Positions 30,748 to 64,000 of a stretch of DNA of 64,000 nucleotides are shown here, one piece after another. A program made the position numbers and the translations under genes. The notes beneath the pieces are model-generated. The model saw only the letters and a list, made by a program, of their open reading frames with translations. It ran no database searches and had not been told where the DNA came from. The stretch lies in contig NZ_JACKUK010000020.1 of assembly GCF_025822765.1 (NCBI RefSeq), positions 1 to 64,000 of the forward strand, given 5' to 3'. The DNA is from Mycobacterium barrassiae (GTDB lineage: Bacteria; Actinomycetota; Actinomycetes; Mycobacteriales; Mycobacteriaceae). Each line of letters opens with the position of its first letter. The stretch's first letter is position 1.

Positions 30748-31571
30748 GCATCGAGGAACTGGCAGGCGTTCACCGTGACATCCACGCCGCTGAGGGTGAA
30801 ATCCTCTTGCAGACAAAGGATTTGACGGTCAAGTTCGGCGGCCTGACGGCACTTGACTCGGTGACGTTCGATATCCGGCGCGGTGAGATCCTCGGCATGA
30901 TCGGTCCGAACGGCGCCGGCAAGACCACGTGCTTCAACGCCATCACGGGGGTGTACCGGCCCACCTCGGGAACTGTGACGTTCGACGGCGCCGTACTGGG
31001 TCGCATCAAACGGCACCAGATCACCCGTCGCGGCATCGCCCGCACTTTCCAGAACATCCGGCTGTGGGGCGAGATGACCGCGCTGGAGAATGTCATGGTC
31101 GGCACTGACGCCCGCCACTTCACCTCGGTACCCGGGGCGCTCGTACGGACTCCACGCCACCGCCGAGAGGAGCGCTCGGCGATCGAACGCTCGGCGGCTC
31201 TGCTGCATTTCGTCGGGATAGCGCATCGCGGCGAGGAGAAAGCCAAGAACCTGTCCTACGGGGACCAGCGACGGCTGGAGATCGCCCGTGCGCTGGCCAC
31301 CGAGCCGAAGCTGCTGTGCCTCGACGAGCCTGCCGCCGGGTTCAACCCTCGCGAGAAGGCCGCCTTGATCGAGCTCATCCAAAAGATCCGCGATGACGGC
31401 TATACGGTGTTGCTGATCGAGCACGACATGCGGCTGGTCATGGGGGTGACGGACCGCATCGTCGTGCTGGAGTTCGGCCGTAAGATCGCCGACGGCCTGC
31501 CGGCGCAGATCCGCGAGGACCCCAAGGTCATCGCCGCTTACTTGGGAGTGCCCGATGACGACAGCCAGTGA
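30744..31571 (+). CDS. livG: Branched-chain amino-acid ABC transporter ATP-binding protein LivG
   Basis: 275 residues. Walker A GPNGAGKT, Q-loop ARTFQNIRLW, signature LSYGDQRR (the degenerate form common in LivG), Walker B LLCLDEPAAGFNP and switch His in IEHDM are all present. The insertion between Q-loop and signature (DARHFTSVPGALVRTPRHRR) is the usual LivG length marker. ATG 30744 overlaps the livM stop; the end overlaps livF by 17 bases. Confidence 0.93.
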   Translation: MSIEELAGVHRDIHAAEGEILLQTKDLTVKFGGLTALDSVTFDIRRGEILGMIGPNGAGKTTCFNAITGVYRPTSGTVTFDGAVLGRIKRHQITRRGIARTFQNIRLWGEMTALENVMVGTDARHFTSVPGALVRTPRHRREERSAIERSAALLHFVGIAHRGEEKAKNLSYGDQRRLEIARALATEPKLLCLDEPAAGFNPREKAALIELIQKIRDDGYTVLLIEHDMRLVMGVTDRIVVLEFGRKIADGLPAQIREDPKVIAAYLGVPDDDSQ

Positions 31572-32298
31572 CGACAGGCCGGTCGTGCTCGAAGTGCGCG
31601 ACCTCGTCGTGCAGTACGGGCAGATTCGTGCGCTGCACGGCATCTCGTTGCAGGTGCGTGAAGGCGAGTTGGTCACACTGCTGGGATCCAACGGCGCGGG
31701 CAAGACGACCACGATGCGGGCGATCTCGGGCCTGCTGCCGTTGACATCAGGGTCGGTATGGTTCCACGGCTCCGACATCTCGAAGGTCAAGGCTCACAAC
31801 CGCGTCGCTCAAGGCTTGGTGCAGGCGCCCGAAGGCCGCGGTGTCTTCCCGGGTATGACGGTGATCGAGAATCTCGAAATGGGCTGTTACGGGAGGAAAT
31901 TCGATTCCCGGGCCGAACACAGAGAGCGCCTCGACTGGATTCTGGAGACGTTTCCCCGGTTGGCGGAACGCCGCTCTCAGGTCGGCGGGACACTGTCGGG
32001 CGGCGAGCAGCAGATGCTGGCAATCGGCCGAGCGCTCATGGCGCGCCCGCGGGTCCTGCTGCTCGATGAGCCCTCGATGGGCCTGGCGCCGATGGTGATA
32101 TCGCAGATCTTCAAGATCATCGCCGAAATCAACGCCAGCGGTACCACCGTCCTGCTGGTGGAGCAGAACGCGCAGCAGGCGTTGAGCCGCTCCGACCGCG
32201 CCTACATCCTGGAGACCGGCGAGGTCACTCGCGAAGGCAATGCGCGAGAACTGTTGGCCGACGACAGCATTCGCGCCGCTTACCTCGGCGTCGCCTGA
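31555..32298 (+). CDS. livF: Branched-chain amino-acid ABC transporter ATP-binding protein LivF
   Basis: 247 residues. Walker A GSNGAGKT, LivF-type Q-loop region LVQAPEGRGVFPGMTV, signature LSGGEQQM, Walker B VLLLDEPSMGLAP and a switch position VEQNA (Gln/Asn instead of His, normal in LivF). It is the last gene of the liv operon. A palindromic 64-bp element begins 12 bases after the stop and could end both this transcript and the convergent DUF167 transcript. Confidence 0.93.
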   Translation: MTTASDDRPVVLEVRDLVVQYGQIRALHGISLQVREGELVTLLGSNGAGKTTTMRAISGLLPLTSGSVWFHGSDISKVKAHNRVAQGLVQAPEGRGVFPGMTVIENLEMGCYGRKFDSRAEHRERLDWILETFPRLAERRSQVGGTLSGGEQQMLAIGRALMARPRVLLLDEPSMGLAPMVISQIFKIIAEINASGTTVLLVEQNAQQALSRSDRAYILETGEVTREGNARELLADDSIRAAYLGVA

Positions 32299-32309: not shown

Positions 32310-32373
32310 GCCGTCGAGACTACGGTTTGTGACGGAATTCGGCCGAAAGTCGTCAGAAACCGTAGTCTCGGCG
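32310..32373. repeat. Palindromic intergenic element, copy 1
   Basis: Arms CGAGACTACGGTTT (32315-32328) and its exact complement (32357-32370) extend after one mismatch by five more pairs. The loop holds the palindrome TTCGGCCGAA. A near-identical second copy lies at 32967. It sits between convergent livF and the DUF167 gene and could serve as a two-way terminator. Confidence 0.85.
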
Positions 32374-32377
32374 AGCG

Positions 32378-32605
32378 TTAGTCGATGCGAAACCGCTTGA
32401 CCCGTGACGTCGCACCCGATACCAGTGCCACCCGGCTGCGCGGCACTCCCAGGTGCTTGGCCAGTAGTTTGACGACGGCCTCGTTCGCCTTACCCTCGAC
32501 GGCCCGTTCCTGGACATAGATCGTCAGCTCGCCGCTGCCCGCGGCCTCGACGAGCGGCCCCTTTCGGCTACCGGGTTTCACCCGGACGACGACTGTCTCG
32601 CTCAT
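32378..32605 (-). CDS. DUF167 (YggU-like) protein
   Basis: 75 residues, the full length of the family. VVVRVKPGSRKGPLVE, ERAVEGKANEAVVKLLAKHLGVPRS and VSGATSRVKRF-type segments define DUF167 (PF02594). It is a small alpha/beta protein of unknown function found in all domains of life. Its ATG overlaps the stop of the upstream gene in an ATGA, so the two small genes form an operon. Confidence 0.85.
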   Translation of the reverse strand: MSETVVVRVKPGSRKGPLVEAAGSGELTIYVQERAVEGKANEAVVKLLAKHLGVPRSRVALVSGATSRVKRFRID

Positions 32606-32919
32606 CGGGCCGCGGCACGCGCCTCGAACGCGTCGAGCACCTCGACGTGCACGCCGGGAACCTCGATCCGCATCACGACGTCATCGTCAGCGGAATCGAA
32701 CTCGAAGGTGAAGAACGAGCAGCATTGGCTCTCGCGCTGGGCGAGATCGCGCGCTGCGGGTAAGAGTTCGGCGGGCAGCACCAGCTGCAACTGGGTCGGT
32801 TGCACGCGCTCCGACCGCAGGACTCGGGTGAACAGATCGTCGAACTCGGCAACCCGGACTGGGCGTCCCGGCGTCGGCAGCGTGCACGCGTCGGGAACCC
32901 AACCGTCGGGAACTGTCAC
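32602..32919 (-). CDS. Conserved hypothetical protein with a CC-FF motif
   Basis: 105 residues, soluble, no signal peptide. The stretch AQRESQCCSFFTFEF resembles the cysteine-containing motif of small uncharacterised actinobacterial proteins often found near metal-resistance regulators. I cannot assign a function; metal or thiol chemistry is only a guess. It is translationally coupled to the DUF167 gene. Upstream lies the second palindromic element and then the thiolase gene. Confidence 0.6.
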   Translation of the reverse strand: MTVPDGWVPDACTLPTPGRPVRVAEFDDLFTRVLRSERVQPTQLQLVLPAELLPAARDLAQRESQCCSFFTFEFDSADDDVVMRIEVPGVHVEVLDAFEARAAAR

Positions 32920-32966
32920 GGATTCAGGTTAGCGCCCGGTTCCGCCGCACAGCCGGGTCGACGTGT

Positions 32967-33031
32967 GCCGTCGAGACTACGGTTTGTGACGGGATCCGGT
33001 CGAAAAGTCGTCAGAAACCGTAGTCTCGGCG
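32967..33031. repeat. Palindromic intergenic element, copy 2
   Basis: The same 14-bp arms and flanks as copy 1, with only a few loop changes and one inserted base. It lies between the stop of the thiolase gene and the start of the hypothetical gene, both on the minus strand, 15 bases after the thiolase stop. Confidence 0.85.
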
Positions 33032-33045
33032 CTCCGGGGGTCGGG

Positions 33046-34245
33046 CTAGCGGGCGACGACCACCGACGAGCCGTGTCCGAACAGGCCCTGGTTGGCGGTG
33101 ACGCCCACCTTGGCGCCCTCGACCTGGCGGCCGGTGGCCTGCCCCTTCAGCTGCCAGGTGAGCTCGCAGACCTGCGCGATCGCCTGTGCCGGAATGGCTT
33201 CGCCGAAGCACGCCAGTCCGCCCGACGGGTTCACCGGGATCTTGCCGCCGATGGTCGTCGCGCCGCTGCGCAACAACTGCTCGGCCTCACCCTTGGCGCA
33301 CAGGCCCAGGTGCTCATACCAGTCCAGCTCCAGGGCGGTGGACAGGTCGTAGACCTCGGCAAGGCTCAAATCCTCGGGGCCGATACCGGCCTCGGCGTAG
33401 GCAGCGTCCAGTATCTGATCCTTGAACACCCGCTCAGGTGCGGGCACCGCCGCAGTGGAATCCGTTGCGATGTCCGGTAATTCGGGCAGATGCTGCGGGT
33501 ACTGCGGCGTCTGCAGGCTGATCGCGCGCACCGAGGGCACACCGGAGACCGAACCCAGATGCTTCTCGGCGAACGACTTGCTCGCCACGATCACTGCGGC
33601 TGCGCCGTCGGAGGTGGCGCAGATGTCCAGCAGCCGAAGGGGATCAGAGACCACCGGGCTGGCCAGCACGTCCTCGACCGAACTCTCCTTGCGGTAGCGG
33701 GCGTTCGGGTTGTTCAGGCCGTGGCGGGCGTTCTTCACCTTCACCTGAGCGAAATCCTCGAGCGTGGCGCCGTAGAGGTCCATCCGCCGGCGCGCCAGCA
33801 GCGCGAAGTACACCGTGTTGGTCGCGCCGATCAGATGGAAGCGCTGCCAGTCGGGGTCGTTGCGGCGTTCGCCGCCCACCGGGGCGAAGAAACCCTTGGG
33901 CGTGGTGTCGGCACCGATGACCAATGCGACGTCGCAGAAGCCCGCGAGGATCTGGGCCCGCGCGCTCTGCAGCGCCTGCGAACCGCTGGCACACGCGGCG
34001 TAGCTCGACGTGACCGGGACGCCGTTCCAGCCCAGCTTTTGGGCGAACGTCGCCCCGGCGACGAACCCCGGATACCCGTTGCGGATGGTGTCGGCACCGG
34101 CGACGAGCTGGATCTGGCGCCAGTCCAGGCCGGCTTCGGCCAGCGCGGCGCGGGCGGCCACAACGCCGTATTCGGTGAAGTCGCGCCCCCACTTGCCCCA
34201 CGGATGCATCCCCGCACCCAGGATGTACACCGGTTCAGGACTCAT
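33046..34245 (-). CDS. Lipid-transfer protein / thiolase-like enzyme (Rv1627c-like)
   Basis: 399 residues with the thiolase fold. The nucleophile region SYAACASGSQALQSA has the Cys at about position 85. The C-terminal half has NPSGGLACFGEAIPAQAIAQ and GVTANQGLFGHGSS. It belongs to the SCP-x/lipid-transfer thiolases that in mycobacteria act with DUF35 partners on sterol side-chain or acyl-CoA substrates, and lacks the classical HEAF motif of degradative thiolases. The start overlaps the stop of the DUF35 gene. A KstR-type operator upstream of the pair points to cholesterol or lipid catabolism. Confidence 0.88.
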   Translation of the reverse strand: MSPEPVYILGAGMHPWGKWGRDFTEYGVVAARAALAEAGLDWRQIQLVAGADTIRNGYPGFVAGATFAQKLGWNGVPVTSSYAACASGSQALQSARAQILAGFCDVALVIGADTTPKGFFAPVGGERRNDPDWQRFHLIGATNTVYFALLARRRMDLYGATLEDFAQVKVKNARHGLNNPNARYRKESSVEDVLASPVVSDPLRLLDICATSDGAAAVIVASKSFAEKHLGSVSGVPSVRAISLQTPQYPQHLPELPDIATDSTAAVPAPERVFKDQILDAAYAEAGIGPEDLSLAEVYDLSTALELDWYEHLGLCAKGEAEQLLRSGATTIGGKIPVNPSGGLACFGEAIPAQAIAQVCELTWQLKGQATGRQVEGAKVGVTANQGLFGHGSSVVVAR

Positions 34246-52937: not shown

Positions 52938-53052
52938 GCCTGCAGCGCGAATAGTCGATCTGGCGTTAGGCATTACGGCGACTGCACGCTTGTTTGCGCC
53001 CGTTCTCGGGCTTGGATTCAGGCGATGCGTACAACAAGCGTGCAGTCGGCGC

Positions 53053-63970: not shown

Positions 63971-64000
63971 CGCAACACCTTCGCCGAGACTGCGGGCAGA

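Follow-up and report, generated by a model that had tools for sequence, protein, structure and literature searches.

The window analysed here, the first 64,000 nucleotides of contig NZ_JACKUK010000020.1 of Mycobacterium barrassiae, carries two palindromic elements, A and B, which are probably old, dispersed, non-autonomous members of a palindromic mobile family associated with a nuclease. In the full form found in related genomes, a nuclease gene of ~860 bp lies between two cognate palindromes of ~62 bp, and solo palindromes are mostly found at most ~20 nt behind stop codons, often between convergent genes. The association with the nuclease is invisible in the window sequence alone and was missed by an earlier note made from those letters. 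The two elements are:

32312..32373, strand unassigned: palindromic element A, 62 bp, 84.1 bits to the family model R1
32969..33031, strand unassigned: palindromic element B, 63 bp, of the same family as A, 75.9 bits to R1

A dispersed palindrome family in the genus

Elements A and B take the top two ranks among the inverted repeats listed for the 64 kb (arms at most 70 bases apart; 25 of 26 pairs listed). Element A folds into a 17-pair outer stem that includes one G-T pair, an inner stem TGACG..CGTCA and a loop. The earlier note had described both palindromes at these places, and its 14-nt perfect arms (CGAGACTACGGTTT/AAACCGTAGTCTCG), its GCCGTC and CGGCG flanks and its variable loop are all correct; the part that it left unmentioned is the nested inner stem, with which the palindrome extends to ~62 bp.

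Using R1, a covariance model built from 19 copies, we found eight clear copies (at least 64 bits on the better strand) in the 5.9-Mb, 49-contig genome, together with 11 weaker places, ten of which have GTGCACGC/GCGCACGC-like arms and one of which is of the TGTAAC type. Matches at E up to 0.001 occur in 83 of 148 genomes of the genus, M. barrassiae counted in; 36 candidates were scored per genome, so the copy numbers are lower bounds, and six rich genomes for which 150 candidates were scored gave 29–33 strand-matches each, at ~15 places. The proposal that the two palindromes belong to a dispersed family rather than to a local pair is thus borne out by the eight clear copies and by the matches in relatives. 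That one hairpin was merely duplicated locally, as the closeness (657 bp) and likeness of the two copies might suggest, is hardly credible beside the copies elsewhere in the genome and the relatives beyond it. The claim that a related sequence begins at 63983 and is cut by the window end did not survive: the contig past that end (locus L109) yields nothing with the family model at E values as high as 5, and CCGAGACT alone is found seven times in the window, against an expected 2.9. Carriage of the palindrome by phages or plasmids was considered and dropped, the 62-nt consensus having zero matches in the phage and plasmid collections.

A nuclease gene lies between palindromes at one junction

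The gene bracketed by the palindromes encodes a protein whose N-terminus is AbiEi-like and whose nuclease domain resembles those of Vsr and I-Bth0305I. The fold predicted for the catalytic domain is EDxHD/Vsr-like (predicted local distance difference test score, pLDDT, 78) and, as modelled, resembles that of a homing endonuclease; the Foldseek E-values are all above 0.001, the structure comparison rests mostly on residues 140–285, and the Pfam MTES_1575 match of the nuclease stays below its cut-off (32–35 vs 38.2 bits). Among the matches listed, viral contigs contributed one nuclease relative, at 35%.

The full form was surveyed at a junction whose neighbours we take to be PPK2, fadB2 and CMAS. 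A search with a PPK2-like protein, seeded from genome G102, identified the gene in 19 genomes of the genus: eight carry the nuclease together with the elements, and 11 carry neither, the neighbours abutting. Four further genomes, already known to carry elements, all have the nuclease and elements, and palindromes are present in 12 of the 12 genomes with a junction nuclease and in none of the 11 without it (Fisher, 7e-7). Three of the loci limit this count: in G049 the contig ends after one element, in G148 both elements lie on one side, and in G044 the second element is weak (19.5 bits). The junction nuclease gene is found in both orientations. Genome G055 has a decayed version, its nuclease truncated before the catalytic part, and the M. 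barrassiae junction (L126) holds a solo TGTAAC-type palindrome. This solo resembles the palindromes beside the nuclease at C29, with scores of 26–33 for the G055 relative (L305) and 20–21 for M. barrassiae itself (L306).

The nuclease genes scoring above 440 bits, 12 in all, sit at the PPK2 junction, solo palindromes lying elsewhere; the solos elsewhere are therefore not plain leftovers of full insertions at those places. The idea that they correspond to solo long terminal repeats was rejected on this ground. The picture is that of REPtrons, the arrangements of repetitive extragenic palindromic (REP) sequences and their enzyme genes considered below: a home site for the nuclease gene, and palindromes scattered away from it.

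The pairing extends across the nuclease family

Each of 26 genomes contains 6–14 matches to the nuclease family. M. barrassiae has ten, four of them at 260–298 bits and the rest at 86–196, and no nuclease gene of the cognate type was found in this genome. We compared the 5' and 3' flanks of 79 of the ~260 nuclease loci (12 of them at the PPK2 junction, and two overlapping one decayed gene). The two flanks are alike, with a score of at least 20, in 58 of the 79, as against 4 of 106 control genes taken from element loci. A second control, same-size open reading frames (ORFs) from 80 loci of livF, the gene next to element A in the window, gave 2/284 vs 58/78; with both segments required to be palindromic, the counts are 0/284 and 47/78. 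Most of the matching flanks are palindromes, and a few of the 58 alignments take in longer flank or coding sequence. The palindromes differ between subfamilies, closely related nucleases have common arm types, and several palindrome families, whose arms differ by nuclease subfamily, are present side by side in one genome. These comparisons establish that the pairing of the nuclease family with flanking palindromes is general. Element similarity also tracks nuclease similarity (rho 0.24, reached in 0/2000 permutations), a correlation that shared descent of whole loci can likewise produce.

In other families of the order, nuclease relatives are present in 10 of 20 genomes (E up to 1e-20), and the flanks, here 400 nt long and without a control of their own, reach the cut-off score at 15 of 23 loci. 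Within the genus, nucleases of at least 430 bits occur in 12 of 16 element-rich genomes vs 2 of 10 element-poor ones (p 0.009). M. barrassiae contains a second palindrome type both as a full unit and as a solo.

Two side observations belong to the same subject. A decayed nuclease of M. barrassiae (L317) lies between GAGCGTGCGTGTCTG-type palindromes, and this type is also present at 18 of the 80 livF loci (the survey includes L026–L091), mostly just behind livF. In other actinobacterial families, nuclease relatives stand between long, near-perfect palindromes whose sequence is different, e.g. GTTGATCATGGACTTTGCAAC, at L370, L371, L368 and L383.

Several points weigh against an association of this kind, or against its use to explain the window's copies. 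The flank sample is partial, the loci of 18 of the 26 genomes being covered incompletely, and the livF-locus controls were drawn from few gene families. Of the sampled loci, 21/79 remain under the flank cut-off, including three at the PPK2 junction itself (L288, L289 and L291). G082, G129, G055 and M. barrassiae are element-rich and lack a nuclease of at least 430 bits; the reverse holds in G018, where a nuclease of that strength is present and element matches are absent. Solo palindromes would need movement in trans, we infer. In the comparison of M. barrassiae with G055, no transposition event and no recent movement was seen. Finally, the sign of target duplication, an excess of flanking direct repeats described below, is weak.

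Placement at gene ends and the terminator question

Placement was determined in a sample of 86 sources from 14 genomes, chosen among the listed matches, with genes called by our own codon-usage script. Among 100 places scoring at least 40 bits, 92 are intergenic, with convergent neighbours in 46 cases, co-oriented ones in 44 and divergent ones in 2, and the other 8 overlap a called gene; intergenic length alone would distribute the 92 as 5.6, 44.2 and 42.2. Nine weaker places are co-oriented in six cases, convergent in two and divergent in one. Where the neighbours are co-oriented, 35 elements lie closer to the stop of the gene before them and 8 to the start of the gene after them, with median distances of 12 and 43.5 nt.

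Such numbers would suit another explanation, in which the elements act in both directions as transcript-end hairpins (terminators or 3' barriers) and are kept by selection where genes end, and nuclease genes carry hairpins as bystanders. The hairpin is stable and GC-rich and stands just behind the stop codon, as in an intrinsic terminator, and the arms change while staying paired: the alignment of 19 sequences has 17 cells with changes on both sides vs 6.8 in shuffles, yet the number of pairs with a double change, six, is unexceptional, since 69 of 500 shuffles reach it. Other features of an intrinsic terminator are missing. Mycobacterial intrinsic terminators need a U-tract, and none is present here, T making up 0.167 of the 15 nt that follow the hairpin at co-oriented copies and 0.187 at convergent ones. 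Because an RNA hairpin should favour G-U, an excess of such cells would be expected on the transcribed strand; the 44 co-oriented copies have about as many G-U as A-C cells (29 vs 32). Between M. barrassiae and G055 orthologues, the changes in four in-register pairs are mostly one-sided, a fifth pair (C32) being left out as out of register. Selection for transcript ends also leaves unexplained the paired palindromes that change with the nuclease subfamily, as well as an element inside an intein. We regard this explanation as improbable, and the elements may have a side-role as terminators or 3' barriers. The earlier argument that a copy between co-oriented genes speaks against termination is weak, because that copy, element B, when read along the strand of the upstream gene, comes 14 nt after a stop codon. 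A separate idea, that the elements insert into pre-existing terminator hairpins, was discarded: inverted complementarity of the flanks of 74 solo elements is not in excess (2.70 vs 2.81 of 10).

The eight gene-overlapping elements comprise four in frame near the C-terminus of one CoA-transferase-like protein, 17–23 nt before the stop, three that overlap a gene end, and one in frame inside the GyrA intein of G011. In the first group (L111, L177, L227 and L231, from four genomes) the element encodes, in frame, the C-terminal tail of the protein, which looks like a CaiB-type CoA-transferase. The intein element (L222, 2501–2562) occupies the stretch joining the intein halves, which is poorly aligned there to the solved Mxe GyrA intein.

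Transposase-based alternatives

The earlier note had called the family REP- or miniature inverted-repeat transposable element (MITE)-like. Its dispersal, its MITE-like form, its relatives across the genus and its position at gene 3' ends uphold that description, except for REP in the sense of elements moved by a REP-associated tyrosine (Y1) transposase (RAYT), as the genome holds no such enzyme. Movement by a RAYT would suit short palindromes that are scattered through intergenic DNA at the ends of genes, such as the accessible part of PMC3733652 describes. No Y1_Tnp was found in the M. barrassiae genome by a search whose control was positive for 5 of 14 known genomes, Escherichia coli included, and this led us to reject REP/RAYT elements, which we consider extremely unlikely. 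A terminal GTAG/CGTC tag is likewise lacking: the elements start with CGCCGA and end with TCGGCG, and GTAG lies inside the 17-pair stem.

An ordinary MITE of a conventional insertion sequence, with a transposase recognising the arms, would account for the terminal inverted repeats and for flanking direct repeats above shuffled pairs (6 bp: 9/74 elements vs 3.2, largest 8; 7 bp: 5/74 vs 0.86, largest 4). The excess is weak, however, and spread over 6–8 bp without a fixed length, and the gene found between the arms is a nuclease and no known transposase, other transposases not having been searched for. On balance a conventional MITE seems very unlikely.

Neighbourhood and history of elements A and B

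The elements lie among the following genes:

31555..32298, + strand: LivF-like ABC ATPase gene, its 3' end 13 nt before element A; the top NCBIfam model is LivF, at 259.7 bits, under the cut-off of 441
32378..32605, - strand: DUF167 (YggU family) gene, its 3' end 4 nt after element A and convergent with livF; 81.6 bits, cut-off 30.9
32602..32919, - strand: ORF of 105 aa between the DUF167 gene and element B, without a Pfam or NCBIfam match
33046..34245, - strand: lipid-transfer protein/thiolase gene, its 3' end 14 nt from element B; NF004715, 804.7 bits, cut-off 424

Element B lies between co-oriented genes, behind the stop of the lipid-transfer/thiolase gene. An Rfam scan of the window returned tRNAs only. 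The 105-aa ORF is also present behind livF in M. tusciae, as judged by DNA similarity.

G055 carries corresponding elements at the positions of five M. barrassiae copies, the flanks being 80–93% identical, and a decayed one at the position of a sixth (C16:567493). At least six of the eight copies are thus at shared places, which makes the copies old, and those in the window look like relics. In G055 a single deletion took the 105-aa gene together with element B and left a gene stub (window 32627–33043 compared with L172); the locus is for that reason no empty site, and it leaves insertion unproven. A cassette between A and B was rejected on the same evidence of a stub-leaving deletion. PS03-16 and G058 have the order livF, one element, thiolase, which fits recombination between A and B. 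The copy on C37 (L113) stands behind a paralogous thiolase, next to what looks like an Mce gene, and is probably a segmental duplicate of element B with its gene.

A possible mechanism and related systems

Whether the nuclease itself moves the palindromes is, in our estimate, an even call. It would recognise its own palindrome and cut, and the break would be mended by copying from another copy, the palindrome serving as both target and homology arm. Repair of this kind could place further palindromes at other sites, alone or together with the gene, and a palindrome acting as homology arm would explain why the gene is found in both orientations. Copies at gene ends might survive since they do least harm there, or through use as transcript ends. 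More generally, and with slightly less assurance, we suggest a class of mobile element that pairs a Vsr/EDxHD-type nuclease with its own palindrome, the latter being recognition site, homology-arm pair and trans-spreading repeat at once; many such pairs may have radiated in mycobacteria and other Actinobacteria, accounting for many intergenic palindromes.

The accessible part of PMC3733652 describes REPtrons, in which palindromes are dispersed at gene ends, the enzyme gene lies between or beside copies, and each palindrome type has its own enzyme. An enzyme-plus-palindrome scheme is already known from REP/RAYT, and the family described here shares with it the dispersed gene-end palindromes, the enzyme gene between copies and the several type–enzyme pairs. 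The enzyme is unrelated: a Vsr-like nuclease with an AbiEi-like N-terminus instead of a Y1 transposase. The palindromes here also have a greater length and almost perfect pairing, and they lack a terminal tag. Free-standing homing endonuclease genes of the EDxHD type (I-Bth0305I) are another related system; no homing gene is known to us that stands between cognate palindromes of which solo copies are present genome-wide, and among the papers listed by literature searches none describes one. Integron attC sites are likewise palindromes that adjoin gene ends and bound a movable gene; the difference is that one nuclease family recurs between the palindromes here, not assorted genes. The in-frame position inside genes, here in the GyrA intein, recalls the Rickettsia palindromic elements, for which we know of no nuclease partner. 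Other repeats include the CGTC repeats, which have no dedicated transposase according to the accessible part of PMC3733652, and Myt-1, a 72-bp stem-loop family of M. tuberculosis (PMC2267715, accessible part); the part of PMC10117815 that is accessible names no such repeat. A literature search, with subscription papers mostly outside its reach and others seen in part, found no paper tying this nuclease family to palindromes.

If the association holds as proposed, it would give an origin to a set of terminator-like intergenic palindromes in mycobacteria and a role to a nuclease family so far named only DUF559/MTES_1575/AbiEi-like. The palindromes would be scars of selfish nucleases, not evolved terminators, which would change terminator prediction in these genomes, and each nuclease would have a testable substrate beside its own gene.

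A further palindrome in the window

The window contains one more related palindrome, which went unmentioned in the earlier note:

52976..53051, strand unassigned: palindrome of the GTGCACGCTTGTT sub-type with 19-nt arms, a weak R1 match (35.9 bits)

Its arms are CGGCGACTGCACGCTTGTT, and the sub-type is found at about ten places in the genome.
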